From NCBI GenBank assembly GCA_029253285.1, contig JAQWZU010000018.1, forward strand, positions 1-59,162: a stretch of 59,162 nt of DNA, given 5' to 3'. The position numbers and the translations under genes are program-made. This document shows, in pieces, positions 1 to 42,986 of this stretch. Source of the DNA: Akkermansiaceae bacterium. GTDB taxonomy: Bacteria; Verrucomicrobiota; Verrucomicrobiia; Verrucomicrobiales; Akkermansiaceae. How positions within the stretch are numbered: the stretch's first letter is position 1; each line of letters starts with the position of its first letter. Under the pieces are notes generated by a model that was not told where the DNA came from, did not search any database, and worked only from the letters and a program-made list of their open reading frames with translations.

Positions 1-1832
1 CAATTCTCGGAACTCTCGCCTTTTTCCTGCTCAAATCCCGTCAAGAGAGCAAGAAAACGGATACTTTGGTCAGCAAAGTGGTCGGCAGCGAGGAGCTCAT
101 TCTCAAGCTGACTCCCAAATTGGGCCGGATTTCGGATAAGCTCTTGAACCTAAGTCCTCCCGAGTCAAGTGGACTCTTCACCGATTCCGTCACGGTAAGA
201 GACCTCTCGGGAGAAGTTCGCTTTGAAGCAAAGCCACCTGCGGGTCAACTTATTGCGGGAAAGCAACTTGGCTTGGCAGAGTCATCCCAACAAATTCCCG
301 GGGCAGAACTTGCTCTCTGGAGCCCTTTACTCGATAAAGTGGACTATTTTGAGCAAGCCAAACTCAAGATCATCAGGGGATCATTCACCTCGGATGAACA
401 CAACGAATTTGAATGCCTCGTTAAATTCAGCGGATTAGCCCGAAATAATCTGGGATCATGGTCCAGCCTCTTGGGAAAGCAGTCCCTGACCTGGAACAAA
501 CAAGCCGGGGGGGATTGGAAAATTTCAAAATGGGAGACCAAGAGCTTTTCCACCGCGACCAGCTCCCACCGGTTTTTTGCAGACCGACTTGATGAAGCAC
601 TTCCAAATTTCACCGATCGCGCGAAAGCCCGGTTCTCGATTCACGAGGAAGAACTCATTAAATATTACAAAAGCGGGAAAACCCGCGCTCGCTCTTACGA
701 TTTCGCGCCAATCGCAATGAGCCAAAAACCCGGTATCTCGGTTGTCGATATCGATCAAGACGGATACGACGATCTCTACATCATGGTCCGCATGGGACAG
801 AATCTTCTCCTTCGGAACCGGGGAGATGGCACTTTCGAAGAAATCGCCGAATCCCGGGAATTGGCCATCAAAGGAAACTCGACCTGCGGCATCTTCGCTG
901 ATTTTGACAACGACGGTGACTCCGATCTCATTCTGGGACGAAGTACTGAAAACAGCGCCTATTTCAAAAATACCGGTTCCTGGTTTGAAGAGGTTGAACA
1001 AGACACTGCACTCCCCGCACTCGTCATTTCCATCTCTGCAGCGGACTACAATCGCGACGGGCTTCTCGATCTCTACTTCTCAACCTACCGATTAAGCCAA
1101 CTGGGAAGTGGAAATTCCGGCCTCGCTCCGGAAGACGATAGTTCGAAATGGCCGGAACGATTTCTCTCTGCCGAAGATGCCTCCGAATTCCGGGAAAGGT
1201 ATCGCACCGAAACAAAAAAAGACGGCGACATTGATTTCCTCAATCAGGTGGGTCCACCCAATGTCCTCATGATCAACCAAGGTGGTGGAAAATTCGCACC
1301 CGCACCTGAAGGGCCTCAAATTAATCTCTGGAAGAACACCGTTCAAGCGACTTGGGCTGATATTGATGAAGATGGCGATCCCGATCTCTATCTCTCCAAC
1401 GATTTTTCATCCGACAACCTTTATCGCAATGACGGGAAGAACGGCTTTGTTGATATCACCAGCGAATACGGACTCACCACCTATGGATTTGGAATGGGAG
1501 CCTGCTTCGGCGACTATGACAACAACGGGCATCAGGATCTCTACGTCTCCAATATGTTTAGTAAGGCGGGCCGCCGTATTCTCTCGAGCTTCGACGGAAT
1601 CGATCCCAACTATCTCCATTCGGTCAACGGAAACGTCCTCTACAAAAGACCCGATTCCAAAAACTTCGAGCGTGTTTCCGGATTAGAGCCACCCTCTCTC
1701 CTCGTCGCCGAAGCCGGATGGTCCTGGGGTGGGCAGTTCGTCGATTTCGACAATGATGGCGATCTCGATATCCATGCTCTGAGCGGATACTTTACGGCCC
1801 CCAAGGAATTAGCCTCCGAGGTCGACTTGTGA
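1..1832 (+). CDS. FG-GAP/VCBS repeat protein, upstream part (5' partial, ends at in-frame TGA)
   Basis: The reading frame is open from base 3, so the gene begins outside the window. The first residues in view (ILGTLAFFLLKSRQ) look like the end of a signal anchor or membrane helix; the TTG at 66 is therefore not needed as a start. After about 200 residues without a recognised fold come FG-GAP/VCBS-type calcium-binding repeats with D-x-D-x-D-G loops (DIDQDGYDDL, DFDNDGDSDL, DIDEDGDPDL, DYDNNGHQDL, DFDNDGDLDI), expected to fold as a beta-propeller outside the cytoplasm. The frame stops at TGA 1830-1832, and the same frame continues without another stop to 2984 with sequence that clearly belongs to the same protein (CRTAC1-like FG-GAP plus ASPIC/UnbV). 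It is one gene split by one codon: a nonsense mutation, a sequencing error, or a recoded TGA. Function unknown; such proteins are common secreted or anchored proteins in Planctomycetota and Verrucomicrobiota. Confidence 0.8.
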   Translation, partial: ILGTLAFFLLKSRQESKKTDTLVSKVVGSEELILKLTPKLGRISDKLLNLSPPESSGLFTDSVTVRDLSGEVRFEAKPPAGQLIAGKQLGLAESSQQIPGAELALWSPLLDKVDYFEQAKLKIIRGSFTSDEHNEFECLVKFSGLARNNLGSWSSLLGKQSLTWNKQAGGDWKISKWETKSFSTATSSHRFFADRLDEALPNFTDRAKARFSIHEEELIKYYKSGKTRARSYDFAPIAMSQKPGISVVDIDQDGYDDLYIMVRMGQNLLLRNRGDGTFEEIAESRELAIKGNSTCGIFADFDNDGDSDLILGRSTENSAYFKNTGSWFEEVEQDTALPALVISISAADYNRDGLLDLYFSTYRLSQLGSGNSGLAPEDDSSKWPERFLSAEDASEFRERYRTETKKDGDIDFLNQVGPPNVLMINQGGGKFAPAPEGPQINLWKNTVQATWADIDEDGDPDLYLSNDFSSDNLYRNDGKNGFVDITSEYGLTTYGFGMGACFGDYDNNGHQDLYVSNMFSKAGRRILSSFDGIDPNYLHSVNGNVLYKRPDSKNFERVSGLEPPSLLVAEAGWSWGGQFVDFDNDGDLDIHALSGYFTAPKELASEVDL

Positions 1833-1859
1833 AGTAATCTCTGGCGTACGGTCGTGCGC
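1830..1859 (+). promoter_or_regulatory. In-frame TGA followed by a SECIS-like hairpin
   Basis: TGA is at 1830-1832. At 1844-1859 is a 6-bp stem GCGTAC / GTGCGC (one G-U pair) closed by the tetraloop GGTC at 1850-1853. The loop G residues lie 18 and 19 nt past the TGA. Bacterial SECIS elements are short stem-loops just after the UGA with G at the start of the apical loop, about 16-37 nt downstream; the E. coli fdhF loop contains GGUC at nearly this distance. I see no clear bulged U in the stem, and a hairpin this size could occur by chance. Candidate only. Confidence 0.35.
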
Positions 1860-2987: not shown

Positions 2988-5900
2988 TTAGTTCTCCTCA
3001 ATTCTCAAGCGAAGAAATTGCTTCTCGCTTGCTCCGATCGGCGGGGTGAAGCGCACCGTCATGATCTTGCGGCCATCGCCTTGATTCACTTCGCTGACTA
3101 CTTCGGAATTCGCCGCGGCATTCTGCCAATTGGCGAGATCAGTCGAGGCATCAACTCCCACCGTCACACCATCCGCACCAATACTCACTGGATAGCTCAT
3201 CGTCAGCATGCTCTGCGGACTTCCACCGATATCGTAGGTTTGCCAACTCACACTCGAAGCCATGGGGGCGCTGCCGAGACCATTCCCCAGTGCGTAGTCG
3301 ACCAAATCTGCAATGCCATTTCCGTCCGAGTCTCCCGTGGGACTCGCTGGTACGGGGATGGCATCAGAGGCATTCGGACTGCCGCCCGGTAAGACACTCG
3401 AACGCCAGTTCGCAGCCACATCAGGATCTGGATTCGCGTTTGGATTAACCAGGACCAAGCTATAACCGGCATCCGCCGCCACCGGCCAAGGCGCGACATC
3501 GTTGTAAATGAACTCACGGATCGTACCATTGAGCGCATCCTCCAACTTAAGGGTCTCACCGTCATTATTAAGTCGACTCAAATTGGCAAACTCTCCCGCC
3601 ACCGGATTTCCCCCGCCATGAACGGCATTGAAAGCAGCTGAATCACGAACAAGCAGCACCCGCGCTCCCGGCGCAAGGCTGGTCACGGCGGATCCAGTGA
3701 AATCAAATTCAACGCCCTGCACAAACTTCACGCCAGTGAGATCCAAGGTCACGGCATCGCTGATATTGGTGAGCTCGATAAACTCCGCCAAGCCATCGCC
3801 GTCCGGATGATACATGATTTCCGACACCACGAGATAAAGCTGCGCGTCGGAAGGATCCCCGAGATAAGTCGTCGTCGTGAGGAGATTCCCATCAACATCG
3901 AGCAAGTTCAATGTTTCAGGAAAGCTCGATAAATGTCCGCTGTATTTGCCTTGGATAAACCGGCCCTCACCTCCCGTCGGACTTACTGAGCGGGCGCGGA
4001 AAGTATTCACGTCAGGAGAGACATAGAGGCTGCCACCCGACGCAATCACCGTGCCTGGAGCGAAGGTATGTTCAATTCCTCCGGTAATCTCCCACTCGGA
4101 AATATCCACCGCGAAACTAAACGGGTTCGTGATTTCAACAAACTCCTCATCCTGATTTCCAGATGCCGGGCTGAATTCGATCGTCCCGAACGAAAGAGCG
4201 GGATGCCCGCCGCCGGGAGCGCTTGTCGCTCCGCCATAGAGCTCGGGCCTGATGATGAAATCACTACTCCCGGTCGATTGGTTCAAGCCGTGAATCGCAA
4301 GAATGTTTTGCCCTGCTTGCAAGGAACCCAACTTTGAGGTGACGTCATAAATATTGAAGCTTCCGGCGTTTGCTTCCGGTCCGTTCCCGTTCGAAGCCGA
4401 CAGGTAATCCACGGATGCGGGATTGTTAGCCGCGAATAGGAAATCACCATTGAGATAAGCGACAAAGCCATCGTCCCATTGCATGCGGAGTTCCAAACTA
4501 TCGAAATCGGCCGGGTCGGTGACGTTGAAAGGGACACGAATATAAATTGTGGTACTCGACGCCATTGCCGCTTCCACATCCGTCCCGATCAACGATTCAT
4601 AGCCACTCCCCCTGTCGTAGCCAAAGCCTGTCGGACCACTGAACCAACCGGCAGTGCTAAAGGGTTCATTGGCTGGCGCGCCCTGCCACGTCGTCCCCAG
4701 ACTATCATCGGTGGGAACAAACGCGTATCCGGTATCGCCTGCTTGCACTAATGGCGTCAAGGTGACCGAGGCCTGACCGATTTGCTCATCAGGAATTTCC
4801 CCGCCGTTGCCAACCGTTTGGTTGTTGTAAATCTCATTGCGCCGTCCGGGGAGATACTCGTTCTTCCATCGCACAATTGCCTCCGCCATCGATTCCACGG
4901 CCACATTATTCGTGGTATAAGGCACCGAGCTTCCATTCCCCTGCAACCACGATCCCCACTTTTCAAAGTCGCGCTGGGCGTCTGATTTCGCCATCAAGGG
5001 ATCGTCGATCAAGGCCGCCTGTTCATCCAGTCGCCGTTCATACCAACGATCCACCAAGGGAGTGCTCTCTGGCTGCAGAAACTCATCCGCCAAAGTCCTG
5101 ATGCGACGATGAATCATCGCACGCGTCTCGGAATTATTAAAAAGATGGGAAACAAGCCGAATGGAATTGCCGGTGACTACCAACCCGTTGGTATAAACGT
5201 TATTGTCGAAATAAGTGTTCTGGGAATTCCAAACCCGGCCTTGCGACAAATCCAGATCCCAGGGCAGAATCGCCCACTCATCAGTCTTCCCGGTATCGCG
5301 GTAAATATACCAGTTCTTACTGTGCATATCGATGTTTCGGATCACCGAATTGGCCGCCAACATATTGATGGTCTTCGGAATATCAATATTGTCGCGCATG
5401 TAGTTTTCCAAGGCCGCGCCCGTCAAATCGAGCCCGTCAATGAGTGCCTGCAAATCATCGTTGTTTTCCGACTTACGATTCTTTTTCTCGACGCCGGAAT
5501 AACCGGTGTTCCCCTGATCCTTGTTCAAGCGATTGCCGTAGACCTTGTACATCGCGCCATTCGGATTCAGGCCGGCCCGCTCCAAATAGATGTCATCCCC
5601 GTCTTCTACGAAGTCCGCCGTACTAAAAAACTGGCCATTCTGCTCCACCCGGATGGTAAAGGCAAAGTGCGCGTTAACCCCAGACTCCCGCATGATCTCC
5701 CAAGCCAAAGGATGGCGCACCTTTGACTTGTCAGCCCAGTTCGTCAGCAGATCAATATCGGCCACTCGTGGGGCTTCGTCGCTCCAGAGAAATCGCTGGG
5801 TCTTGTTGAAATCGAGATTGTAACTTTTCTTGATGAAGCCCCCGGTCGATTGCCCGTGACGGTTGAAATGCACGTTGTCGTAAAACTCGCCCTTGTAATA

Positions 5901-7463
5901 AACCGCTCCGGTCGTTCCGGTAGTATTAGTAGCGCCGGACGGGTTCTGGATAAACCAATCCAGCACATTGAGATTCGTCGTGATCGTGGGATCAGCCTGC
6001 ACCGTCCCGAAGTATTGATGGGAATCCACCGGATCCCGAAAAGCCGGTTCCTTGGTCTGGGCACCACTGGTATCTGTCGCGGCAAAGCGCCAGCGCGTCA
6101 TTTCGCCATTCTGCAAAGCCGAAGCCGGAATGTTCGCGGTATAAACTCCGTCACCCGCGGCAGCATCAGGAGCAACTCCATCATCTGCCATCGCCAGCTG
6201 GGTCTCTCCACCAAAGGCCAGGCGATAATAGACTGCCACCGTCGAGACTGGATCAGCCGATCCTGAAATCTGCGCCGTCACGGTGAGATCGCCGCCCGTT
6301 GGCTGGGGAGGATTTTCAGTCACTGTCCCAAAAACAGGACCGGCGGCCTGACCTCCGGTATTGGCGGCGTTCGGAGTTGGCGTATCAAAGTAGACCAGTG
6401 GCGCGGGCGCATTGGGATCAGAAGAAACATTGACCACCGCGTTCAGAGTCGGTGCGCCCCCGCTGTTGTCCCAATCCATGAACATGGGATGCGCGCTATT
6501 GATAATCATCAACTGCCCGCGCTGGGGATCTCCGGGATTATCGCGCCAATCCTCCACGAAGCTCTTAATATTCCACGTCGCCGTGGGAGTCTGCCCCGGC
6601 ACCGCGGTGTAGGAATCAACCGGCGTGTTGGCGGCATAATAATTTACCAAGGTATTGTCGTTGTAAGTCGTCGCTACGGTATCGATCCCGTAATTGGCAT
6701 CGGGAACCGGAAACACGCCCAGCTCCGAGGTCACCCCGCTGGACCCAAAAATCGAGGCTGTCGCGACCCCACTCCAGGTCATCGTTGCCGAATCAATGAC
6801 GTCGCCCGCCGTGATCGCTCCCAGCTGCGACGAAAAATCGAACCACATGTAATAGAGCAGTTGGCTTCCGGCAAGATCCGCATCGATGTTGTCAAAGCTC
6901 GACCCCAGCGTTGCCGACTGCACTCCATTCAACTTCACATTATTGAAATTCGCCGGCGAACTCCAAGTTGGGGTGATATTCACCTGGGTGCTGCTCCCCG
7001 GCGTCCCAAATCCAAAGGATTGATCAGGAAACTGTGGTGGATAGCTCGGAAAGAATCCACTCTCAATGGTCGTGCCATCCGGGTTGACCAAGGCCAGATA
7101 CTCACCCCCCGCCGACAGCTTGAAGTTGGTATGCAGCTCCCCGGCAGGAAGTGCCCGGTCTTTGTTCGAAGCAAATACCACCAAAGTCGCCCCGGCATTC
7201 AAATTCACCGCTGGAAAAGTCCACTTGGTAAGATCCCCGACATCATCAGTCAAATGATACCCAGCCAGAGAAATCGCGGAGGCGTCTGGGTTTCGGATCT
7301 CAATCCAATCACTGAAATCTCCGTCTTCATCCGCCAAAACAGAATTATTGACCGCCATAAATTCCGAAATAATGGGGCCCGCCAAAGCTCCGGGAATCGA
7401 GAATATTGCGATGTGGGCAAGCAGATACTTAAAATTAATCAATAGTTTCCAGTTCATGGACAT
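2988..7463 (-). CDS. Giant secreted CotH-kinase / lamin-tail-domain protein (1491 aa)
   Basis: The N-terminus (MSMNWKLLINFKYLLAHIAI ... ALAGP) is a signal peptide. A lamin-tail domain follows (about residues 28-150: ISEFMAVNNS, DWIEIRNPDA). A CotH-like kinase domain sits at about 510-850, with NWYIYRDTG and the acidic PWDLDLSQG motif near residue 730, which matches the metal-binding segment of spore-coat kinase CotH. A galactose-binding-like beta-sandwich and two more lamin-tail domains (about 1095-1180 and 1205-1300; SEIMYHPDGDG, EFIELTN) follow. The C-terminus has a DSDGNGIADLVDYALG segment and the end FLRLRIEEN, a module shared with the other giant proteins here. The order suggests a surface or matrix protein; kinase activity is inference from the fold. 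No PEP-CTERM signal is seen. The 185-bp gap to the next gene upstream must hold its promoter. Confidence 0.85.
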   Translation of the reverse strand: MSMNWKLLINFKYLLAHIAIFSIPGALAGPIISEFMAVNNSVLADEDGDFSDWIEIRNPDASAISLAGYHLTDDVGDLTKWTFPAVNLNAGATLVVFASNKDRALPAGELHTNFKLSAGGEYLALVNPDGTTIESGFFPSYPPQFPDQSFGFGTPGSSTQVNITPTWSSPANFNNVKLNGVQSATLGSSFDNIDADLAGSQLLYYMWFDFSSQLGAITAGDVIDSATMTWSGVATASIFGSSGVTSELGVFPVPDANYGIDTVATTYNDNTLVNYYAANTPVDSYTAVPGQTPTATWNIKSFVEDWRDNPGDPQRGQLMIINSAHPMFMDWDNSGGAPTLNAVVNVSSDPNAPAPLVYFDTPTPNAANTGGQAAGPVFGTVTENPPQPTGGDLTVTAQISGSADPVSTVAVYYRLAFGGETQLAMADDGVAPDAAAGDGVYTANIPASALQNGEMTRWRFAATDTSGAQTKEPAFRDPVDSHQYFGTVQADPTITTNLNVLDWFIQNPSGATNTTGTTGAVYYKGEFYDNVHFNRHGQSTGGFIKKSYNLDFNKTQRFLWSDEAPRVADIDLLTNWADKSKVRHPLAWEIMRESGVNAHFAFTIRVEQNGQFFSTADFVEDGDDIYLERAGLNPNGAMYKVYGNRLNKDQGNTGYSGVEKKNRKSENNDDLQALIDGLDLTGAALENYMRDNIDIPKTINMLAANSVIRNIDMHSKNWYIYRDTGKTDEWAILPWDLDLSQGRVWNSQNTYFDNNVYTNGLVVTGNSIRLVSHLFNNSETRAMIHRRIRTLADEFLQPESTPLVDRWYERRLDEQAALIDDPLMAKSDAQRDFEKWGSWLQGNGSSVPYTTNNVAVESMAEAIVRWKNEYLPGRRNEIYNNQTVGNGGEIPDEQIGQASVTLTPLVQAGDTGYAFVPTDDSLGTTWQGAPANEPFSTAGWFSGPTGFGYDRGSGYESLIGTDVEAAMASSTTIYIRVPFNVTDPADFDSLELRMQWDDGFVAYLNGDFLFAANNPASVDYLSASNGNGPEANAGSFNIYDVTSKLGSLQAGQNILAIHGLNQSTGSSDFIIRPELYGGATSAPGGGHPALSFGTIEFSPASGNQDEEFVEITNPFSFAVDISEWEITGGIEHTFAPGTVIASGGSLYVSPDVNTFRARSVSPTGGEGRFIQGKYSGHLSSFPETLNLLDVDGNLLTTTTYLGDPSDAQLYLVVSEIMYHPDGDGLAEFIELTNISDAVTLDLTGVKFVQGVEFDFTGSAVTSLAPGARVLLVRDSAAFNAVHGGGNPVAGEFANLSRLNNDGETLKLEDALNGTIREFIYNDVAPWPVAADAGYSLVLVNPNANPDPDVAANWRSSVLPGGSPNASDAIPVPASPTGDSDGNGIADLVDYALGNGLGSAPMASSVSWQTYDIGGSPQSMLTMSYPVSIGADGVTVGVDASTDLANWQNAAANSEVVSEVNQGDGRKIMTVRFTPPIGASEKQFLRLRIEEN

Positions 7464-7648: not shown

Positions 7649-10600
7649 CTATCTGAGTTCCGCCGCCAGTCGGTAAAACCACGAGGAAGGACTGGAAATA
7701 TTGTAAGGGTTGGCGGCGCGATATTTCACGGACGATAGACCATTTCCGTTGTTAATCTGTGATACCAGAACGGAATGGGCCTCACCGGTATTCCACCCCT
7801 CCAAATCACTGCCTGTTTCGACCCACACGTCCACGTCATCTGCGGCGATATTTCGTTGGAAGGTAATGGTGACATACGAATTTGCCACATCATCAACTGT
7901 GAGTGTTTCGATGGCGACGGTGAGATTCGACTGCCCTTCACCGCTATCCGAATCGCTCGTTCCCAGAGCGTGTTCCATCAACTTGCTCAATTGATCGCCG
8001 TCATCGTCGCCCAGTGGATCGCCGACGAAGGCAACCCGGTCCGAGGTCGTTGGATTTCCACCGGTCAAAGTGCTACTCCGCCAGTTACTTGCGTCGCCAT
8101 GAACAGGCACACTTCCTCCATCCGAAATCAACACGAGACTATATCCCGGGAAGCCGGATTCAGAAGGCCAAGGCAGTTGGTCACCATAAGTGAAGTCTTG
8201 AATCGTGTTCCCTAGCGCGTCGATCAGATGAATCCTCTCGCCTGCATTATCCAGTCGCGAAGGAGTAAACTCCCCGGCGATGCTCGCATTCAGCGACGAG
8301 CCATAACGCGCCTCGAAGGCCGCTTGATTCCGCACAATCAATACCCGCGCTCCCGGTGGCAAAGTCGTGATGGCTGATCCCGTGAAAGTGAATTCGATTC
8401 CCGCCTCGAAATGCACATCGGTCAGGTCAATTGTCGCCGTGTCGATATTGGTCAGCTCCATCCATTCGTAATCGGCTGGATCTGCGGAAACCGCCTGCTC
8501 GGCCGGGCTGGGGTTTGCCGGAGCATATTGAATTTCCGTAATCAACAGGTTCGTGGCGTTCGCTATGGTCCCAACGAGGAAGGTCCCCTGAATTTCACCC
8601 GACCATGAAGTTAGTCCCGTTCCACTCCGGGCACGCGCCCTGATGTTGGTCGTCGAGTTGACATTCGCAAGAGAACCGGTAGATGCCGAGCCGGAAACTC
8701 CGCCACCGGAAAGTCGTGGATCACTGCCATCGGTGGTCCAGTAGACGGTGCCACCCCCTCCGCTGAATCCCACATTGGTCCCCGCCGATACCAGTCCCGG
8801 CGCCACCGTATACGACGGAGGTGAAGTGTACTGGCTATCGATCCAACCAGCGCGATCCTCCATCCAATCTTTGAGAACATTGACCTGATTGGTATAGCCA
8901 CCCGATGGTCTTACCGCAGTCCATTTGTTGAAGTTCCGAGCCTGGGGGGAGCTTCCCAATCCGGAATTGACGCCACCCGGGTCCTGGAAATCCAGTTCCG
9001 CAACAAAGCCATCGATCACCGAGTGAATATTACTTGTCGAGAAGGTCGTTTGACGAAGCTCCTGCCAAAGGTCGGTATGCTCTTGTCGAAAATCGGGATT
9101 CTCCAAGGCGCGTCCCCACCATGGGAATCGAGAGTCCCCGTAGGTTCTACTCGAGTCACCCGTACCGTCCCAAGCGGAAGGATTATTATCCCGCGAGTCC
9201 GTCGAGCCCATCGTGCGGTCGAAGTCCCAAATCGGACCCGCACCGACTTTGCCGCCATTCGTTTCGTCGTGGTGCTTATAATAATACCCGCTCAACCGGA
9301 AACCATCGACATTCATCGCCAAAGTGTTCAGCCAATGGTGACGCAACCACGAAAAATTATCGATATACTCCATGAAGTTCTTGCCCGTTGTTGGATTGGT
9401 CCAGCTCCCATTGTAGAGCGCGGTATCGAACTCATTAAGGTGATTTCTCAACCAACTCGATTGCGCGGAAACGACATTTTCCTCCTTGGGGTAAACCCAA
9501 CCGAAAGTTCCCATCGAATTCACCGAGAATCCGCCGTCGCCGGGATCAAGTCGGTCCTTCTTCCACAAGTATCCACCTGTGACATCCGGCTCCGTGACAT
9601 CACTCGGGCTGATTTTTTTGACATCCACCCGATCACCGTCCCTCTTGATTTTTTCCATCAAGGTATACACGCCAAAGTAATCACCGCTGTAGGAGAGATT
9701 TCCTCCTCCGGTATTCAAAAACACCTCAACAAACCGGGTCCGCACGGCATACTCGCCGGTCTCGTTACTCAGTTGGTAAATCAAGGGATTTCTCATCAAG
9801 GCCCGGTCAAACGTATAGCGGCCACTGAGAACCCAATCGGATTCCTCCGGCAGTCCCAGGGGAGAGATCGCCTGGTCTCCTTTATTTTCATCCTGTGCTT
9901 CCAGCGAGAGGGAATACTTGGCAAATCCCGAGGAAGACGATCCGCGCACCTTCATGTTACAACGCGTCGCAACGGCCATCGCATCACTCATATGGCTTCG
10001 TTGATCTCCTCCCGTATTCGGCTCGATGATGCTCCAAAACCCATCCGTGTCGCTGTTTGGCTTTCCGCCACTCCAGTTCTCCAAAATAACAATCGGAAGA
10101 TTAGAGCTGAATCCCGAGACGTCGCTGCTCAAAAAGAGATAGCTCGCCATGGCGATCGGGCCCTCCGCATTTCCCGCGCCGATCACCCGTGCCCGCAGTT
10201 GGGTGCTTTGCGAAATGGTAAAAGGGCCGGAATAAAGAGTAGACGAAGAGGTCGGCACGGATCCATCCGTGGTATAGCGAATATTTTGTCCGGTACCCGC
10301 CCCACTCAAGCTTACTTGAAAACTACTGGTGAAGGTCTGGCTCGGAACAGAAATGGCCGCCTCACTCGCGGGCAATCCTTGATCCGTTCCGTTGACCGAA
10401 CCCGGTGTCGGCGTGAGAAAATATCCGGGGCCTCCCAAGGAGGGATTCGAAAGCCTTGTCGCAATCAACCTTGGACGGAACAACAAATCCGAACTCGTTG
10501 TATTTCTATTTAAGCCGTGAATTGCGAGCACGTTGTTCCCTTCCACCAAGGCACTTGTAAACGCGCTAATATTAAAAGGAGTAAATTGCGAAGCCAAGGA

Positions 10601-11443
10601 ATCAGTGTGATCCGAGCTTGCCGTGGAACTCCAATCCACCGGTAAATTCACACGATCGTACGTAACCTGAACACCATTCAAATAAGCGACAAAACCGTCA
10701 TCATACTGGAGCTCTAATTCCAGTGCTGAAATCTCCCCGACATTGGTGACGGAAAACGGAACGCGGAGATACACCCCCGTCCGCTGGTTATACATCTGCC
10801 CTTCCACATCGATGTTGAAATAGCTGTCGTAACCACTGCTTCGCTCATAGCCCACTCCGGTCGTTCCGCTGGTCCACGAGGTGTCGTTGAAGCCAGTGGC
10901 CGTCCAGGACGTTCCAAGCGTGCCATTTGTCGGCACCAGGACGGTGCAATTGGCCGCAACATCAATGAAGGTCTCGTCGTTTGTATTTCCCAATTGCGCC
11001 AAGCCATAGGAGGCATCTTCAAATTGAACCGGATAGGGCGCAACATACTCGTAGAGAACCGTCGTGCCATCAGCCGCCACCAAAGCGAGGTACTCTCCTC
11101 CCGAAGAGATTTTGAAATTGGTATGCAGCTCGGAACCCGCCGTCGCCCGGTCTTTATCGGACGCAAAGACCAACAGAAACTTCGAGGCCTCCAAATTGGT
11201 TCCCACCGGAAACTGCCACTTCGTGAGCAAGGCCGGGTCGTCGGTCAGGTAACACCCGCTCAAATCGTAATCCGAACCATCTGGATTAAAAATCTCAATC
11301 CAATCGCTATTGTTGCCATCTTCGTCATTCAAGATGGACGAGTTGTCTGCCTGAAACTCCGTAATCACCGGAGCGGCGACCCCTAAAAAGGAGCTCATCA
11401 AAAAAACACAAAGAGGAAAAAGGAGCAGGTGAAAGGGTCTCAT
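7649..11443 (-). CDS. Giant secreted CotH-kinase / lamin-tail / chitobiase-C-like protein (1264 aa)
   Basis: The start is set at the ATG at 11443 because the protein then begins MRPFHLLLFPLCVFLM, a normal signal peptide; the frame is open 26 codons further up but that segment is not signal-like. Order: lamin-tail domain (about 20-130, DWIEIFNPDGSDYDLSG), galactose-binding-like sandwich (160-330, YDDGFVAYLNG), chitobiase/hexosaminidase C-terminal-like repeat (355-435, IRYTTDGSVPTSSS), CotH-like kinase (480-830, with GPIWDFDRTMGS near 739), second chitobiase-like repeat (870-950, VYWTTDGSDPRLSG), second lamin-tail domain (960-1080), and the shared C-terminal module (DDDGDQLSKLMEHALG ... FYRLAAELR). 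Predicted secreted or surface-attached; substrate unknown. It is divergent from the hydrolase at 11584, with 140 bp between the starts. Confidence 0.85.
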   Translation of the reverse strand: MRPFHLLLFPLCVFLMSSFLGVAAPVITEFQADNSSILNDEDGNNSDWIEIFNPDGSDYDLSGCYLTDDPALLTKWQFPVGTNLEASKFLLVFASDKDRATAGSELHTNFKISSGGEYLALVAADGTTVLYEYVAPYPVQFEDASYGLAQLGNTNDETFIDVAANCTVLVPTNGTLGTSWTATGFNDTSWTSGTTGVGYERSSGYDSYFNIDVEGQMYNQRTGVYLRVPFSVTNVGEISALELELQYDDGFVAYLNGVQVTYDRVNLPVDWSSTASSDHTDSLASQFTPFNISAFTSALVEGNNVLAIHGLNRNTTSSDLLFRPRLIATRLSNPSLGGPGYFLTPTPGSVNGTDQGLPASEAAISVPSQTFTSSFQVSLSGAGTGQNIRYTTDGSVPTSSSTLYSGPFTISQSTQLRARVIGAGNAEGPIAMASYLFLSSDVSGFSSNLPIVILENWSGGKPNSDTDGFWSIIEPNTGGDQRSHMSDAMAVATRCNMKVRGSSSSGFAKYSLSLEAQDENKGDQAISPLGLPEESDWVLSGRYTFDRALMRNPLIYQLSNETGEYAVRTRFVEVFLNTGGGNLSYSGDYFGVYTLMEKIKRDGDRVDVKKISPSDVTEPDVTGGYLWKKDRLDPGDGGFSVNSMGTFGWVYPKEENVVSAQSSWLRNHLNEFDTALYNGSWTNPTTGKNFMEYIDNFSWLRHHWLNTLAMNVDGFRLSGYYYKHHDETNGGKVGAGPIWDFDRTMGSTDSRDNNPSAWDGTGDSSRTYGDSRFPWWGRALENPDFRQEHTDLWQELRQTTFSTSNIHSVIDGFVAELDFQDPGGVNSGLGSSPQARNFNKWTAVRPSGGYTNQVNVLKDWMEDRAGWIDSQYTSPPSYTVAPGLVSAGTNVGFSGGGGTVYWTTDGSDPRLSGGGVSGSASTGSLANVNSTTNIRARARSGTGLTSWSGEIQGTFLVGTIANATNLLITEIQYAPANPSPAEQAVSADPADYEWMELTNIDTATIDLTDVHFEAGIEFTFTGSAITTLPPGARVLIVRNQAAFEARYGSSLNASIAGEFTPSRLDNAGERIHLIDALGNTIQDFTYGDQLPWPSESGFPGYSLVLISDGGSVPVHGDASNWRSSTLTGGNPTTSDRVAFVGDPLGDDDGDQLSKLMEHALGTSDSDSGEGQSNLTVAIETLTVDDVANSYVTITFQRNIAADDVDVWVETGSDLEGWNTGEAHSVLVSQINNGNGLSSVKYRAANPYNISSPSSWFYRLAAELR

Positions 11444-11528
11444 GGGCAATACTGGTTTTGCGAGCCTCGGAAGATGGTGCGCAAAGCACTCCACCGCAAG
11501 CATGGAAACCCCGCGGGGCATCCCAATG

Positions 11529-16324: not shown

Positions 16325-19300
16325 ATGTTTTCTCTAAAGAAATCCTGCCTCAACACCTGTCCCTCCGTGCTTTCAGCCGGTTTTGCCGTCTTGCTCTCCC
16401 TGACCTCTGCGCAGGCCGAACAGGTGATTTTCACGGAAATCAACTACAACCCCGCCGGTGACGATCCCGAATTCATCGAGATTACCAACAATACCGCCAC
16501 GCCTTTCGACATCGGCACCTGGTATTTCTCCGATGGCGTGGATTACACCTTCCCCGATTTTAGCGCCGGCGACACCGGCGCACATATCCTCAAACACTGG
16601 GAGCGGATCCTCGTCACCAACGTCGATGAAGCCACCTTCCGGACCGCCTATCCAAGCACCCCGGTCGGCGTTCGTATTTTCGGGCCCTTCACCGGATCTC
16701 TGAGCAACTCGGGAGAAAATCTGGAACTCAGCAACAAGAATGGCGTCATCATGGCCCAAATCAACTACAATGATGGCGGCAAGTGGCCTGCTTCCGCCGA
16801 CGGTGCCGGGCATACCATCACCCGCATCAACCCAAACCGCGCCCGCGGTGAGTGGCGCAACTGGATGAGCAGCGCCGCGCCGGGGGGCACGCCGGGAAGA
16901 CCTCCTGCCAGCGAAGACGATCTGCCGACCACCACCACACCGATCGCAGAAACCACCTCGGAGTGGAAATACGACCAAAACACGGGCAACATCGACCGCG
17001 GGACCGCCTGGCGTGAGCCTGATTTTGATGACACCGGTTGGCTTGAAGGCCCGGGGCTTTTCGGTAGAAATTCTCAGGACCCATTTGGCACACCATGGAC
17101 TACCGGTGGCCGGATCACCTACTACTTGCGCCAGGAATTCCAATTCAACGATTCCTTTTCCAGTGCTACCATCAACGTCGATGCCTACGTGGACGACGGC
17201 CTCGTCGTTTATCTCAACGGTCAGGAGATTACCCGCTTCAACATGCCCGCCGGTGAAATCAACTACGATACCCCGGCAGCAGGAAACCGGGAATGGGACG
17301 ATGAACTGGTCGCAATCGCTTCCGGCACCGACATCAGTTCCTCTCTTCAGTTGGGAAGGAATGTCCTCGCCGTTGAGGTCCACAACCAGAACGCCGGCAG
17401 CTCTGATATTGCTTTCGGGGCGGATATCAGCATCACCGCGACCACGCCACCTCCCGGCGCCCTGCCAAATCTCATCTTCAGTGAAGTCCACTTTGGAGAA
17501 GACGAAAATATCGATTGGATCGAGCTCCATGCTCCCGGAAATTCTCCCGTCTCTACCGCAGGCCTAAAAATCTCCCCCACCCGCTCACTCACTAACACGA
17601 TTGATCTTTCCGGAAGCATTCCCGCTGGAGGATACCTCAGCTTCCCTGCCACTTTTGCCACTGATGAAAATGGAGACGTCGACCTCTTCCTCATTCAAGG
17701 CAGCACTGTCATCGACGCCATCAAGCTGGACCGCGATCTCGACGAAGAAAGCTTCCAGCTTTTCCCCATCGGCAGTGGAGAATTCTATGGCGGGCCCGGT
17801 CATACCCAGGACGCCCCCAACGATCCCACCAATCGCAACGAGGACATCATCATCAATGAAATCATGTTTGATGCCCCCTCCGATCATCTCAACGGCGAAT
17901 ACATCGAACTCTACAACCGCAGTGGCGATGCCATCAATCTGTCCGGATGGAGATTCACCGAAGGCATCAGCTTTGATTTCCCCGACACCATCATCGGAGG
18001 AAATTCCTATCTCGTGATCGCGGCCGACTCCGACTGCCTTCTCGCCGCCCACGGAGCGATCAATGTTCTCGGAAACTGGAAAGGCACTCTCCGCGACTCA
18101 GGCGAACTCATCCGCCTCGTCGACAACAATGGCAACATGGCCGACGAGGTCGACTACCTCCCAAGCGGCGACTGGCCAAACCTCGCTGACGGAAACGGCA
18201 GCAGCATGGAGCTCCGCCACCCCGACATGAACAACAATGTCGCGACAGCATGGACCGATAGTGACGAAGCCAACAAGTCCCCGATGGAGACCTATTCCTA
18301 TACCGCGGACTTCATTCGCTCCTCTTGGCTTCCCTTGACGAGTGGGCAGGAACTTCAAGCTCACCTCGTCGGTGACTCCCATGTTATCCTCGAAAACATC
18401 AGTGTCCGCCTCAACAACAGCGGTTCCAATTTACTGCGAAATCCCGAAGTGATGTCGCCCACACAATCAAGCGCCTCCGGATGGGTTTGTCAGGGCACAC
18501 ACTGGGCCAGCTTCATGGATGCAGGGAAACTCAATCTCATTGCCGACGGCCACGGCGATAACAAAGCCAACCGGGCAGAGGTCGATTTCCAGACCTCTCC
18601 GGTCGTGGGAAACAGCTATACTCTCAGCTTCGACGGACGCTGGGTCAGCGGAAAACCACGAGTCGTAATGCAAACCCTCGACCACGGCTTTGGGACAAGC
18701 TTCCTTCTTCCCATCCCGGAAGACCTCGGCACACCCGGAGCCCCCAACTCCGCGCTTCTGCCCTCCGCCGCACCCACGGTCTCGGAGGTCATTCACAGCC
18801 CGGCCGTGCCAAAAACAGGCGAACCAGTTACCGTGAGTGCTCGCATCGATTCCGCCGAACCTCTCACTTCGGTTGAGGCCGTTTATCGTCTCGACAACAA
18901 CAATGGCAACGGAACCTGGCAGCGCCAGACCATGAGTGACGACGGCACCGGGCTCTACAGTGCCAACCTCAATCAATACACCACCAACGGAAACCTTATT
19001 CAGTTTTACGTCGAAGCCATCGCCGGAGGAGAGTCCACCTTCCAGCCCACCAAAGGGCCCGACCGCCCTGCCATGTGGGTGGTCGATAACCGCACCATGC
19101 CCAGTGTTCTTCTTCGCGAGCGGTTCGTTGTTTCAGCTTATGACCGTCAGGCATTGAATGCCAACGTCGGGGGAGGAGCCACTTTTGACTACAACTTCCC
19201 GCGCATGTCGAATCACTTCTTCAATGCCACCTTCATCGCCAACGAAAGCGAGATCTACTACAACGCCGAGATTCGGAAAAGTGGCAGCCCTTTTACTCGG

Positions 19301-22300
19301 GCAACCGACTCGAATCTCGCACACGGAAAATGGAAGCTCCCGGGCGACCGGCTTTTCCGCAATCGCCGGCGCAGTGTCATCGATGCCTCCGGGACCTCGG
19401 AAGGAAGTGGCACCCCTCGTTTCTACGACGACCGTACCGCTCGCTACTTCCTCTACCAACTTGGTCACCCCACTAACGAAATGGAATTTGTCCATTCCGT
19501 GATCAATACCGACGCGTTTAAACTCCGGGAAAACCACGAGCCCATCTCCAACGATTTCCTGAACCGTAACTTCAAAGATGGCACCGACGGCACCCTCTTC
19601 CGAATCGATGACGAATGGCGCTTCACCAGCGACGATGGTAACGCCCGGCAAAATCGCAACGCCGACTGGTCCTACAAAGACACCGACAATCCCACCAGCT
19701 ATCAAAGCGAATGGATCATGCGGACCCGAGAATCCGATCACGACTTCAGCACCTTTGTTGAATTTGTCCGCACTCTGGACGGGACCTTTGATGAAGACGA
19801 AGTCAACCGTATGGCCAACGCCCGCATGCTCGGTCTCAACGCTGCCGTGCGAGGCTACGATGCCGATTGGGACACCATCACCGTCAACCGGGGAAAAAAC
19901 GCCTACATGTATCGCCCAGCCGATAACAGTGGATTCATGCTCCTTCACTGGGACGGCGACCGGGTCTTCGAACGCAGCACCCAAGCCATCCTCGGAGGAC
20001 GGGCTGGCGTCTCAAAATACTTTGCCCAACCATACGTCCGCCGCTACGTGAACTACTATCTCACCAAGCTTCTCGACGAACACACCCAGGGCTCCGCTCG
20101 CACCATCGCCTGGATGGATGCTGAAATAGCCTCAATCTCCGGAACCGGTATAGTGATGCCAAAATCACACTACACCAACTGGTTCAATATCCGCGAAACG
20201 TTCTCTCGCAACTTTGTCACCAGCGCGGTCAACAATGCGACGTTTAATATCACCACCAGCAACGCCAACACCACCGCCGACATTCTTGCCCTCGCTGGTA
20301 CTTCCCCGCCTACCGTTCTCGATATCCGCGTCGCCGGACACCCCGATGTGACCGCTCAGTGGACCGACAAAACCAACTGGATGATTGATGGCCTGGCTCT
20401 TGTCGAAGGAAGCAACGTTTTTGATCTCGAAGGAATCGATCACGATGGAAACGTCATCGAGACTGATCAATTCATCATCATCAAAACAAACAACGCTCCG
20501 CCGATCATTCTCCTCGAGACCGATCCAAAATCGTTGAATGTCGACATCGGCGAATCGATCACCTTCGACGTCTCGACAAGCTTCGATCCCGAAGGCGACC
20601 TCCTCACCTTCGACTGGGCGGTCAGCCCGGCCTACGGGGCAAATCTCATTCCAAGCGGCGGCATAGCCGAAGCCACTTTTGCCATTCCGGGCCTCTATAC
20701 CTTCACCGTCTCTGCGACCGATGGAGAACCTCAAACCACTGACCGGGAAATCATGGTCTCCGTTCATGGCGACGGCTCCTTCTCAACCTTCGGTAACACC
20801 TTACTCGATGCTCCCTGGACCCTCGCCGATATCGAAAAGCACGGAAACGCCTCAAGCGGACCCCACTACTCCCTGCAGGACAATGACGGCCGCCTGACCA
20901 TCAACATCCCACTCGGCCTGACTCCACTTGGCTTACCGCCAGTGGAAGTTCCCGCACCCGTGCAATACCTCGACTTCGGCGATGTCTGGAAATACAACGA
21001 TGATGGTGACGAGCTCACAATCGGCGGGGTCTTCGCCCAGCCTGGATTTGACGACAGCGCATGGCTGTCCGGACCCGGCTTCCTCGGTCGTGGTGAATCG
21101 GGCCTTCCCGCCCCGGGCCTGCAAACCGATACCTTGGTGAGAGGCAACTCGACAAATGGACTCATCACCTACTACTTCCGCAAGGAATTCGAATTTACCG
21201 GTGACCCGGTCGGGGCCCAACTCTTCATCGATCACATCGTCGATGATGGCGTTCGTTACTACCTCAATGGTCAGGTGATCGGCAATATCCGACTCCCAAG
21301 TGGAGCCATCGATTCAAACACCCTCGGAACCAAACTCTCGGTAGAAGATGAGATCGAAGAAGATGTCCTCATCGCCGATGTCTCGGGCTCGATCATTAAC
21401 GGAACTAATGTCCTCGCTGCCGAAGTTCACAACGAGAGCACCGGAAGTTCTGATCTTGTCTTCGGCGTTCGCGTCGATATCTCCGCCAATGAAGAAGTCG
21501 GTGGGGGCATCAATCTTGACGATGCCATTCATCCGTGGATCAGGCGCCAACTTCCCGCCGGTGACTGGACCCTCCAAACCGAAGTGAAGCTCGAAAAAGC
21601 CCAGTTCGGAGAGTTCTACGCCGGGCTTCTGGTCGAAGCCAACCAGGGAGGCAACACCTTCCGCTACGGTGTCGGATACGAAAACGGAACTCACGTCGCC
21701 TCGATGCGGGTCAACCCGTCCGGAAGCTCCGAGACCATGGTCCAGGGACCGGAGATCGATTCGAACATCCTCACCGTCCGACTGCAACGCACCGGAAACG
21801 ACCTCATCTTTTCCTGGCGCGATGGCACCGCCTTCAGCCCCTTCCACACCATCAGCCTTCCTGCCGGGACGACCTTCAGTGTCGGCGGCGTTTTCGCCTC
21901 CACCGAGATGACCCAGTCACTCGAAGCGAGCTTCGACTACGCCATGCTCGTTGAGGGAAGCACTGACTTCACCGCCTGGATGGAGGCCAACGGGTTCTCC
22001 GATGCCAATGCCGAATATGGGGACACCGGACTGAGCAATCTCATGACCTACGCCCTCGGTCGCGATCTCAGTGACATTGTAGAACCCACATTCAACGCCA
22101 ATGGCGACTCGGTGAGCTTCACCCACCGCCAGCGTATCCCGGTCAGTAATCTTGATTACAGCGTGGAATCCTCCACCAACTTAATCGACTGGGCTCCTGC
22201 CGGTGATCTCGCTCCCGACGGAGCACCAACTCTTAATCCCGATGGGACTTACACCGTCAATCTCCTGAGCAACCTCACCCCGGTTGAGCAACCCAAGATC

Positions 22301-22333
22301 TTCTACCGTCTTGTGGTGAGACTTCCCCAATAG
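16325..22333 (+). CDS. Giant secreted lamin-tail / CotH-kinase / PKD-like protein (2002 aa)
   Basis: Signal peptide at the N-terminus (MFSLKKSCLNTCPSVLSAGF ... AQAEQ). Domains: lamin-tail (about 33-190, FTEINYNPAGDD, EFIEITNNT); galactose-binding-like sandwich (210-370, YVDDGLVVYLNG); second and third lamin-tail domains (385-640, INEIMFDAPSDH, EYIELYNRSG); a CotH-like kinase region (about 890-1270; LLHWDGDRVFE near 1208, a variant acidic motif); a PKD-like domain (about 1398-1480, DVSTSFDPEGDLLTFDW); a second galactose-binding-like sandwich (1545-1720); a LamG-like stretch; and the shared C-terminal module (LSNLMTYALG ... FYRLVVRLPQ). No PEP-CTERM signal. Followed by a strong terminator, so probably monocistronic. 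Likely a surface or matrix protein; partner unknown. Confidence 0.85.
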   Translation: MFSLKKSCLNTCPSVLSAGFAVLLSLTSAQAEQVIFTEINYNPAGDDPEFIEITNNTATPFDIGTWYFSDGVDYTFPDFSAGDTGAHILKHWERILVTNVDEATFRTAYPSTPVGVRIFGPFTGSLSNSGENLELSNKNGVIMAQINYNDGGKWPASADGAGHTITRINPNRARGEWRNWMSSAAPGGTPGRPPASEDDLPTTTTPIAETTSEWKYDQNTGNIDRGTAWREPDFDDTGWLEGPGLFGRNSQDPFGTPWTTGGRITYYLRQEFQFNDSFSSATINVDAYVDDGLVVYLNGQEITRFNMPAGEINYDTPAAGNREWDDELVAIASGTDISSSLQLGRNVLAVEVHNQNAGSSDIAFGADISITATTPPPGALPNLIFSEVHFGEDENIDWIELHAPGNSPVSTAGLKISPTRSLTNTIDLSGSIPAGGYLSFPATFATDENGDVDLFLIQGSTVIDAIKLDRDLDEESFQLFPIGSGEFYGGPGHTQDAPNDPTNRNEDIIINEIMFDAPSDHLNGEYIELYNRSGDAINLSGWRFTEGISFDFPDTIIGGNSYLVIAADSDCLLAAHGAINVLGNWKGTLRDSGELIRLVDNNGNMADEVDYLPSGDWPNLADGNGSSMELRHPDMNNNVATAWTDSDEANKSPMETYSYTADFIRSSWLPLTSGQELQAHLVGDSHVILENISVRLNNSGSNLLRNPEVMSPTQSSASGWVCQGTHWASFMDAGKLNLIADGHGDNKANRAEVDFQTSPVVGNSYTLSFDGRWVSGKPRVVMQTLDHGFGTSFLLPIPEDLGTPGAPNSALLPSAAPTVSEVIHSPAVPKTGEPVTVSARIDSAEPLTSVEAVYRLDNNNGNGTWQRQTMSDDGTGLYSANLNQYTTNGNLIQFYVEAIAGGESTFQPTKGPDRPAMWVVDNRTMPSVLLRERFVVSAYDRQALNANVGGGATFDYNFPRMSNHFFNATFIANESEIYYNAEIRKSGSPFTRATDSNLAHGKWKLPGDRLFRNRRRSVIDASGTSEGSGTPRFYDDRTARYFLYQLGHPTNEMEFVHSVINTDAFKLRENHEPISNDFLNRNFKDGTDGTLFRIDDEWRFTSDDGNARQNRNADWSYKDTDNPTSYQSEWIMRTRESDHDFSTFVEFVRTLDGTFDEDEVNRMANARMLGLNAAVRGYDADWDTITVNRGKNAYMYRPADNSGFMLLHWDGDRVFERSTQAILGGRAGVSKYFAQPYVRRYVNYYLTKLLDEHTQGSARTIAWMDAEIASISGTGIVMPKSHYTNWFNIRETFSRNFVTSAVNNATFNITTSNANTTADILALAGTSPPTVLDIRVAGHPDVTAQWTDKTNWMIDGLALVEGSNVFDLEGIDHDGNVIETDQFIIIKTNNAPPIILLETDPKSLNVDIGESITFDVSTSFDPEGDLLTFDWAVSPAYGANLIPSGGIAEATFAIPGLYTFTVSATDGEPQTTDREIMVSVHGDGSFSTFGNTLLDAPWTLADIEKHGNASSGPHYSLQDNDGRLTINIPLGLTPLGLPPVEVPAPVQYLDFGDVWKYNDDGDELTIGGVFAQPGFDDSAWLSGPGFLGRGESGLPAPGLQTDTLVRGNSTNGLITYYFRKEFEFTGDPVGAQLFIDHIVDDGVRYYLNGQVIGNIRLPSGAIDSNTLGTKLSVEDEIEEDVLIADVSGSIINGTNVLAAEVHNESTGSSDLVFGVRVDISANEEVGGGINLDDAIHPWIRRQLPAGDWTLQTEVKLEKAQFGEFYAGLLVEANQGGNTFRYGVGYENGTHVASMRVNPSGSSETMVQGPEIDSNILTVRLQRTGNDLIFSWRDGTAFSPFHTISLPAGTTFSVGGVFASTEMTQSLEASFDYAMLVEGSTDFTAWMEANGFSDANAEYGDTGLSNLMTYALGRDLSDIVEPTFNANGDSVSFTHRQRIPVSNLDYSVESSTNLIDWAPAGDLAPDGAPTLNPDGTYTVNLLSNLTPVEQPKIFYRLVVRLPQ

Positions 22334-38211: not shown

Positions 38212-39645
38212 AAGATCCTCGATCACCTCGCCATGGACGTCGGTGAGGCGGAAGTCCCGACCGCTATAACGGTAGGTCAGGGCCTCGTGATCGAAGCCCA
38301 GCAAATGAAGCATCGTGGCATGGAGGTCGTGCACGTGAACTTTATCCGTCGCTGCCGCAAAGCCAAAATCGTCGGTCGAACCATGCACATGGCCACCCTT
38401 CACCCCGCCGCCTGCCATCCAGGTGGTAAAGCCGTAGTGATTGTGGTCGCGGCCGTTGATTTTCCCGGCATTCGTTCCCTTCTTGGGCATCTCGACCACG
38501 GGCGTCCGGCCAAATTCCCCGCCCCAGAGGACGAGGGTTTCATCGAGCATCCCGCGCATTTTTAAATCCGTAATGAGCGCCGCGATGGCCTGGTCACATT
38601 GCCCGGCCAACTTACGGTGGTTTACTTCCAGATCGTCATGGTTGTCCCACGGCTGACCCGCGCCATGCCAGACTTGCACGAAACGCACGCCGCGCTCGAC
38701 AAGACGCCGCGTGATCAACATCTGCCGACCTTGCAAGGTATCACCGTACATCTCGCGAATGTATTTAGGCTCTTTTGAAACATCAAAGGCGTCGGTCGCT
38801 TCGAGTTGCATGCGGTAGGCCAATTCGAAACTCTCCAGCCGTGCTTCCAGCTCCTGATCGCGACCACGTTCTTCGGCATGCTTCTCATTGAGCTGGCGGA
38901 GAAAATCCAACTGCTCGCGCTGCTTGCTGCGCTCAAGATGCTTCGGCACGATGTGCTCGATCAACTTCTTCGGATCCTTGTTCTTGGAGTCAACATAGTT
39001 CCCTTGATAAGCCGCCGGAAGAAAACCCGACTGCCAGTTTTGAGTCCGAGAAATTGGATAACCTCCCGGACACATTGAGACGAAGCCGGGCAGATTTTGG
39101 TTCTCTGTTCCGAGACCATAAGTCACCCACGATCCCACGCTCGGACGCGGTAAGCGCGAGTCTCCGCAATTCATCAAAAGCAACGAGGGTTCGTGATTGG
39201 GAACTTCGGCACGCATCGAACGAATGACACACAACTCATCGGCACAGGCTTCACCAACTTTGGAAAAGATCTCCGAGACTTCGAGGCCGCTTTCACCGTA
39301 TTTCTTGAAGGAGAAGGGAGACTTCATTGCCATCCCGGTAGGACGCTCGGTCTTCAATTCCAGGGGGATTTTCTTCCCGTCATACTTCGTCAGCTCCGGT
39401 TTGGGATCGAAAGTATCCACCTGAGATGGTCCCCCGTTCATGAAGAGATGAATCACGGCCTTCGCCTTTCCTCGCTTCTGCGGCATTTTGGGAGAAAGCG
39501 GACTAGTGGCCCCTGACGCCACCGCACTGGGAAGTCCGCCCATCGCGAGCGCTCCCATGCCCATCCCATAGCGGGAAAGAAATTCGCGCCGGGTGCCAAT
39601 GTAGCCTCCGTGGCCTTGTTCGTGATGCTTCATCTCAATCGACAA
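38203..39645 (-). CDS. Tat-exported DUF1501 protein
   Basis: 480 residues. TRREFLSRYGMGMGALAM near residue 18 is a twin-arginine signal. Then come HLFMNGGPSQVDTFDPKPELTKYDG, VIRSMRAEVPNHEPSLLLMNCG, ERGVRFVQVWHGAGQPWDNH and LWGGEFGRTPVVE, the hallmarks of DUF1501, a sulfatase-fold (alkaline-phosphatase-superfamily) family of Planctomycetota and Verrucomicrobiota. It overlaps the upstream DUF1549/1553 gene by 11 bp, the standard pairing of these families, so the two are translationally coupled and probably act together outside the cytoplasm. Biochemical role unknown. Confidence 0.9.
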   Translation of the reverse strand: MSIEMKHHEQGHGGYIGTRREFLSRYGMGMGALAMGGLPSAVASGATSPLSPKMPQKRGKAKAVIHLFMNGGPSQVDTFDPKPELTKYDGKKIPLELKTERPTGMAMKSPFSFKKYGESGLEVSEIFSKVGEACADELCVIRSMRAEVPNHEPSLLLMNCGDSRLPRPSVGSWVTYGLGTENQNLPGFVSMCPGGYPISRTQNWQSGFLPAAYQGNYVDSKNKDPKKLIEHIVPKHLERSKQREQLDFLRQLNEKHAEERGRDQELEARLESFELAYRMQLEATDAFDVSKEPKYIREMYGDTLQGRQMLITRRLVERGVRFVQVWHGAGQPWDNHDDLEVNHRKLAGQCDQAIAALITDLKMRGMLDETLVLWGGEFGRTPVVEMPKKGTNAGKINGRDHNHYGFTTWMAGGGVKGGHVHGSTDDFGFAAATDKVHVHDLHATMLHLLGFDHEALTYRYSGRDFRLTDVHGEVIEDLLA

Positions 39646-42121: not shown

Positions 42122-42146
42122 GAGCTTATAGAACTCAAAAGCACCC

Positions 42147-42986
42147 ATGATCACTCGAGCCATTTTTCTTTCACTCGCCGTTGTCCTCTTGAGCAGCTGC
42201 GGATCAAAATACGGTAAAGTTTCCTACCGTGAAGCGCCCAAGTTCATCAATGTCTCGGCCTACGACCCCAAGGAACGCCAGCGCAGTGGACGCGGCTACA
42301 CCCCGCTCAATCAAACCGCGCTCAAAGTCAACGGCTCGCGGGCTCTCATCGCGCGCTGTGCCAAAGGCTACGAACTGGACTCCAAATGCGCCGACTTCCT
42401 CCAGGGAGCGGAACGCCAGGGGATGAAACTCGGAGCCTATTGCTTCATCCTGGCCCACATCAGCCCAACGGTGCAGGCTGACCGCTTCATCCAACGTCTC
42501 CGCGTGATCAAGTCGTCCAAGGGCCTGCAAACCCGCGAAATCCTCCTCGTCTGCGATGCCGACACCAAAAGCTCCGCTGCTCAGATTGCGGAATTTATCC
42601 AGCGTATCGAAACACTCACCGGCACCACCCCCATCGTCTATCTCGAAAACAGCGACCGCCTTCGTGCTACGCTCTCCTCGGCCAGCTCCAAATACAAGCG
42701 CATCATCCGCCGCGCGCCCTATTGGATCGCGCTCTACTCAAACAAATACTACGACAGCCCGCACGACCTCATGAAAGCCTACGACATCTGGAATACCTGG
42801 GCCATCTGGCAGTTTGGCGGTGTTCTCTGGGAAAACGGCCGCTCCGCACCCAAGGTCTTCCGTAGCCTCGGTTGGCGCGCACCCAAATACTTCGGAAACA
42901 TGGACCGACCCATGGAACGCAATGCCTTCAACGGCACCGCCGAGGAATTCGAAAAGTTCTGGAGTCGCAATTCCTGGAAATGGTAG
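42147..42986 (+). CDS. Lipoprotein with degenerate GH25 (lysozyme-like) domain
   Basis: 279 residues. Lipobox LSSC with Cys18 after MITRAIFLSLAVVL. The fold order matches GH25: INVSAY (normally IDVS), ALIARCAKGYELDSKCADF, GMKLGAYCF, LVCDADTKSSAAQIAEFI, TGTTPIVYLEN, WIALYSNKY and WAIWQFGG. In GH25 lysozymes the first motif has Asp and the later one is D-x-E; here the residues are Asn35 and D137-A-D139. Two catalytic positions are therefore changed and lysozyme activity is doubtful; it may bind glycan or have another specificity. Only 25 bp separate its ATG from the divergent PSD1 start, and it overlaps the MATE gene by 7 bp. Confidence 0.7.
   Translation: MITRAIFLSLAVVLLSSCGSKYGKVSYREAPKFINVSAYDPKERQRSGRGYTPLNQTALKVNGSRALIARCAKGYELDSKCADFLQGAERQGMKLGAYCFILAHISPTVQADRFIQRLRVIKSSKGLQTREILLVCDADTKSSAAQIAEFIQRIETLTGTTPIVYLENSDRLRATLSSASSKYKRIIRRAPYWIALYSNKYYDSPHDLMKAYDIWNTWAIWQFGGVLWENGRSAPKVFRSLGWRAPKYFGNMDRPMERNAFNGTAEEFEKFWSRNSWKW

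Follow-up and report, generated by a model that had tools for sequence, protein, structure and literature searches.

The in-frame TGA at positions 1830-1832 (+) of the window, by which the whole analysed stretch of 59,162 nucleotides is meant, is very probably a selenocysteine (Sec) codon. This prediction is drawn from the sequence and its relatives because the genome encodes the Sec machinery, nine gene copies have a TGA at the same alignment column, UGA-bearing members occur in five phyla, Sec and Cys exchange at the position, SECIS-type hairpins are enriched and covary, and the family co-occurs with SelB. The codon would be decoded by the SelB and tRNA-Sec of the cell, aided by a hairpin at 1844-1859. 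It is somewhat favored that the gene belongs to a widespread and heavily duplicated family in which an integrin-like propeller has been turned into a secreted selenoenzyme with its own reductase domain, and that this family may be the main selenium sink in the Akkermansiaceae of this genus.

Reading frame and domain layout

The selenoprotein gene (3-2984, +) is an open frame of 993 residues when the TGA is read through, and it ends with a TAA at 2982-2984. Its 5' end is open, as the window starts at a contig edge, and the N-terminal membrane anchor is cut. The original prediction had placed one TGA inside a frame of about 990 codons, with 383 undamaged codons following it, and both statements were borne out. 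The TGA corresponds to residue 610 of the open frame and lies in the motif EVDL-U-SNLWRTVV.

The encoded protein is composed of an N-terminal domain, an FG-GAP (integrin-alpha-like) beta-propeller that holds the Sec (residues ~240-741; 720-2225, +), an ASPIC/UnbV domain (residues 766-833; 2298-2501, +) and a TlpA/ResA-like thioredoxin domain (residues ~873-993; 2619-2981, +), in this order. Pfam cut-offs were exceeded for FG-GAP_3 (141.5 bits) and UnbV_ASPIC (PF07593, 54.9 bits), and Pfam FG-GAP was also assigned. The thioredoxin domain, proposed here as the reductant of the Sec, has the motif WCAAC at 2655-2669. This C-terminal thioredoxin-like region with its WCAAC had been noticed at the outset, and it was supported by weak NCBIfam matches to TlpA/DsbE (E 0.012 in the window copy), by secondary structure, by a modelled domain of high pLDDT at residues 876-991 and by the spacing of the CxxC in 67 homologues. 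The same part of a paralogue (L024) gave clear matches to ResA (E 4.7e-14) and AhpC-TSA (E 2.6e-14) in NCBIfam and Pfam.

An orthologue from an Akkermansiaceae MAG (L045), which shares 85% identity over the best core segment with its match in the query of the alignment, and 81% over the full alignment, has an N-terminal hydrophobic segment that runs on into the same sequence. On direct reading of the paralogues, it was observed that one (L020) starts with a membrane anchor and another (L023) with the lipobox-like LITGC; hence, the family is probably exported. The product would be membrane-anchored and extracytoplasmic, with a location in the envelope.

Selenocysteine machinery

The genome has a size of 4.31 Mb and a completeness of 96.7%. 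It contains a tRNA-Sec that scores 54 bits, over the Rfam cut-off, and has the anticodon TCA according to ARAGORN, together with selA (490.6 bits), selB (274.6 bits) and selD (373.5 bits), so that each of the four genes for which a search had been suggested was found. The selD gene is itself of the Sec type, and an in-frame TGA lies within its UxxK motif. This gene (L156, G000:C135:17623-18552) reads CGG-U-ASK, and a SECIS-type hairpin with a GGTC loop lies ~32 nt 3' of its UGA.

The co-occurrence of the family with SelB was evaluated in 39 genomes with a completeness of 90% or more and a contamination of 5% or less. SelB was over the cut-off in all 17 genomes with a confirmed UGA copy, and a strong family match was present in 0 of the 16 genomes without SelB (Fisher p 2e-6, uncorrected for relatedness). 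Of 13 genomes from five phyla that have UGA copies and were located via named loci, SelB was found in 12, the lone exception being a fragmented MAG in which SelB is present in partial pieces.

The family and the residue at the selenocysteine column

Nine copies of the gene, including that of the window, are present in the genome, each with exactly one TGA and all at the same alignment column. In 58 related genomes (the present one included), ~150 matches were listed, nearly all of them with one TGA, and up to 16 UGA copies were counted in one relative. UGA-bearing members were found in Verrucomicrobiota, Planctomycetota, Acidobacteriota, Gemmatimonadota (with the BD2-11 clade) and Chloroflexota (a Dehalococcoidia MAG). 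The distinct UGA-bearing homologues number 98 and usually have the motif D-[LG]-U-[ST]-x-x-W-R; the context across these genes is U-[S/T]-x-[FYL]-W-R, the tryptophan being retained in 96 of them. The suggestion in the original prediction of a new selenoprotein in an FG-GAP family was therefore supported, with the addition that the family is large and multi-copy and not limited to one gene.

The homologues had also been proposed for inspection at this column, and the outcome was a TGA in the nine paralogues and in at least five phyla, and a Cys in the nearest UGA-less paralogues. Cys occupies the column in all six UGA-less paralogues readable there (L168-L173) and also in three other UGA-less sequences (L063, L078 and L154). 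Glu (L049) or Ser (L051) was found in single homologues only, and these few cases indicate that not all lineages strictly require the residue at the column. Over a tree with 113 members, six or more changes of the residue were counted. The six Cys-type paralogues form a group with the motif D-[YH]-C-[ST]-x-[FY]-W-x-[HQ]-D, which occurs together with the UGA-bearing copies in a number of relatives from the same genus and order. A UGA-less FG-GAP/UnbV protein is also encoded in the same genome near a UGA copy (L163:11097-13958, -); in this protein, the UnbV domain precedes the last FG-GAP repeats.

No strong member was found in 240 other genomes sampled across the phylum, for each of which the best 7 candidates were scored, and among which many of those from the same taxonomic family belonged to one other genus; hence, the family appears patchy within the phylum. 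One gene (G026:C268) that had been taken to contain two TGAs was set aside as such, as it has one Sec codon and the second TGA looks like an ordinary terminal stop.

The SECIS-type hairpin

Downstream of the TGA, a bacterial SECIS-type hairpin is predicted at 1844-1859 (+), with 17 nt from the UGA to the loop. Its stem of 6 bp is formed by GCGTAC (1844-1849) and GTGCGC (1854-1859) and encloses the loop GGTC (1850-1853), the Gs of which stand at +18/+19 after the TGA, just as they had been described. The minimum free energy (MFE) was calculated to be -9.1 kcal/mol for 40 nt and -7.4 kcal/mol for the isolated hairpin. Bacterial SECIS elements (bSECIS) have been defined by an apical loop of 3-9 nt, a stem of at least 4 bp, a G in the first two loop positions, a distance of 16-37 nt from the UGA and an MFE of at most -7.5 (PMC13188914), and the window hairpin lies within all of these limits (6 bp, GGUC, 17 nt and the 40-nt value). 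With the SECIS of E. coli fdhF and the bSECIS model (PMC13188914), it shares the small G-first apical loop, the distance of 17 nt within the range of 16-37 nt and a stem of 6-8 bp; it differs from the fdhF element in that it belongs to another protein family and is located very close to the UGA. The GGTC apical motif is the same as that of the selD SECIS of this genome.

Taken by itself, the window hairpin is near chance, being matched in 5.5% of the draws when the codons of this peptide are randomised synonymously (p ~0.055), which agrees with an earlier rough estimate of one in 10-20 tries; its significance therefore comes from the comparative evidence. The best hairpin of each UGA gene under the constraints of PMC13188914 was set against sequences that encode the same peptide with randomised synonymous codons, and hairpins at or below -7 kcal/mol were found in 81% of 58 UGA genes, against 9.8% expected and a maximum of 21% in 200 draws. 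UGA genes that have no good hairpin (e.g. L060, L144 and L046) are a minority, and a SECIS-type hairpin is absent at the corresponding position of the UGA-less homologues.

Covariation was weak when the nine sequences of this genome were treated as one stem, because two subfamilies use stems that are offset by one base; the subfamilies were then analysed apart. In the D-D-L subfamily (38 sequences), the pair 18-28 links the third, silent position of an Arg codon to the first position of a codon further on and occurs as AU (18), GU (9), CG (3), UA (3) and GC (2), which are compensatory changes. The covariation score of this structure was above those of all shuffles (0/500) and of all slid controls.

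Alternative readings of the TGA

The near-chance statistics of the window hairpin would by themselves suit an ordinary nonsense mutation in a pseudogene, or a sequencing error, with a hairpin that arose by chance. Such an origin is extremely improbable given a TGA at the same column in 9/9 paralogues of the genome and in 98 distinct homologues across phyla, frames that are intact past the TGA, and the covariation of the SECIS; the nonsense mutation with which the original prediction had left room for a simple explanation was rejected by this conservation. A sequencing error was ruled out, since L045, a close orthologue, and dozens of further genomes have the same TGA. As an in-frame conserved TGA may in principle be used for recoding of any kind, it might also be a programmed regulatory stop or be read as another residue, such as Trp, by suppression or a changed code. 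However, the UGA homologues pair with Cys paralogues and not with Trp, and the family tracks SelB and bears SECIS hairpins, so that recoding other than to Sec is regarded as very improbable. A changed genetic code was ruled out by the fact that TGA also terminates other frames of the window in the normal way, namely the ORFs 39635-42163 and 54860-57181, in which further in-frame stops follow 43 and 21 codons past the terminal TGA, respectively.

Structure and fold relatives

The protein was modelled by AlphaFold with a pLDDT of 88.6 and a pTM of 0.90, and the N-terminal domain, FG-GAP propeller, ASPIC/UnbV domain and thioredoxin-like domain were all recognized in the model. Sec610 opens a helix (610-619) directly after a strand (604-608) and thus takes the N-cap position, which typically favors an ionised, reactive selenol. 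The residues D608, W614, R615, E672 and R702, which are near the Sec in sequence or in the next blade, are invariant or strongly conserved.

The closest solved structure by fold is that of CRTAC1 (cartilage acidic protein 1; PDB 9etn), with a Z of 34.2 over 458 residues and an rmsd of 2.4. It was also the sole PDB match by sequence (E 7e-23), in a HMMER alignment that leaves the Sec segment uncovered. CRTAC1 has the same combination of an FG-GAP propeller and an ASPIC/UnbV domain, but it is without the thioredoxin domain and is not known to be a selenoprotein. Another fold neighbor is aldos-2-ulose dehydratase (4a7k, Z 22.7).

Proposed redox mechanism

A thiol-redox mechanism with Sec as the redox center is considered the better-supported option, though with some reserve. 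Sec610, capping the N-terminus of the propeller helix, would act as the catalytic redox residue, and the oxidised selenol would most likely be recycled by the fused TlpA-like thioredoxin domain through its WCAAC. In most members that are without this domain, a Cys stands at Sec+2 (UxC), and it could recycle the selenol instead. A peroxide, or disulfides and oxidised thiols of secreted proteins, would be the leading candidate substrates. Of the 92 UGA genes that could be scored, 67 have the CxxC domain ~260-285 residues after the Sec, and in these 67 a Cys at +2 never occurs, while UxC is found in 19 of the 25 UGA genes that are without a thioredoxin-type CxxC domain (raw Fisher p 8e-15). A tree-corrected sign test of this exclusion was not significant, with about four independent pairs on well-supported branches; the independent contrasts in which both traits differ always run in opposite directions. 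The pattern suggests, as its best explanation, that the Sec needs a resolving thiol, either in cis or from the fused domain.

Two other views of a genuine selenoprotein were weighed. In dehydrogenases and hydrogenases, Sec is a ligand of Mo/W or Ni, and FG-GAP propellers bind metals via DxDxDG loops; the residue could accordingly be a metal ligand, or a structural part of the propeller, and not a thiol-redox center served by the thioredoxin domain. The metal-binding nature of such propellers, the description of aldos-2-ulose dehydratase as a metal enzyme in its entry titles and the conserved D608, E672 and R702, which could surround a site, are in line with this role, whereas the fused TlpA-like CxxC in most members and the usual UxC in the rest are features of thiol redox chemistry, and a metal or structural role is therefore judged unlikely. 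It is about equally doubtful that the thioredoxin domain acts on other proteins and the Sec has an unrelated role, the fused-domain pattern being then a matter of inheritance within subfamilies; the few independent changes on the tree would permit this, but the opposite directions of the contrasts that differ in both traits speak against it. Recycling of the Sec by a thiol thus remains the preferred mechanism.

Relation to known selenoproteins

The family is apparently a new selenoprotein family, with a fold that is absent from earlier lists and with an unusual expansion. Among the 119 families of prokaryotic selenoproteins inventoried in 2026, there is no FG-GAP, VCBS, UnbV or propeller entry, and no NCBIfam model (June 2026) was over the cut-off for the proteins tested. 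In the full-text literature, no prior report of a selenoprotein with ASPIC/UnbV, FG-GAP, CRTAC1 or VCBS was found; this search did not cover the supplement of PMC4807772, which lists selenoprotein candidates of two planctomycetes, and an earlier mention there is possible. The UGC-containing TlpA-type and other thioredoxin-fold selenoproteins (PMC13188914) likewise combine a TlpA-like domain and Sec in one polypeptide in an extracytoplasmic redox setting, but in the present family the Sec is located in the FG-GAP propeller and the thioredoxin domain keeps an ordinary CxxC. The thioredoxin-like selenoprotein Sec.2 (PMC13188914) has the UxC motif, as does the subset of the family that is without the thioredoxin domain, and differs in its fold (PF13192, thioredoxin-like).

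Because genes of this type are truncated at the UGA by standard gene calling, the family, with copy numbers from 9 to at least 16 in a genome, has apparently been missed. The integrin-like propeller is not known to serve in redox chemistry. The placement of Sec in a CRTAC1-type beta-propeller offers a route towards the function of the obscure ASPIC/UnbV proteins, and the family implies that some Verrucomicrobiota and relatives of theirs have a heavy demand for selenium that had not been seen before.

Neighboring genes

No consistent pathway was recognized among the neighbors of the family, which include CotH/lamin-tail, sulfatase, PEP-CTERM and M24 peptidase genes. In the window, the selenoprotein gene is adjoined by two adjacent genes for very large proteins with lamin-tail domain (LTD) and CotH kinase (2988-7463 and 7649-11521, -). 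LTD/CotH genes are also located near selenoprotein copies on contigs C40 and C91, though this proximity may be due to chance, because both families look numerous. Further along the window, an open frame of 2002 residues is present at 16325-22333 (+).
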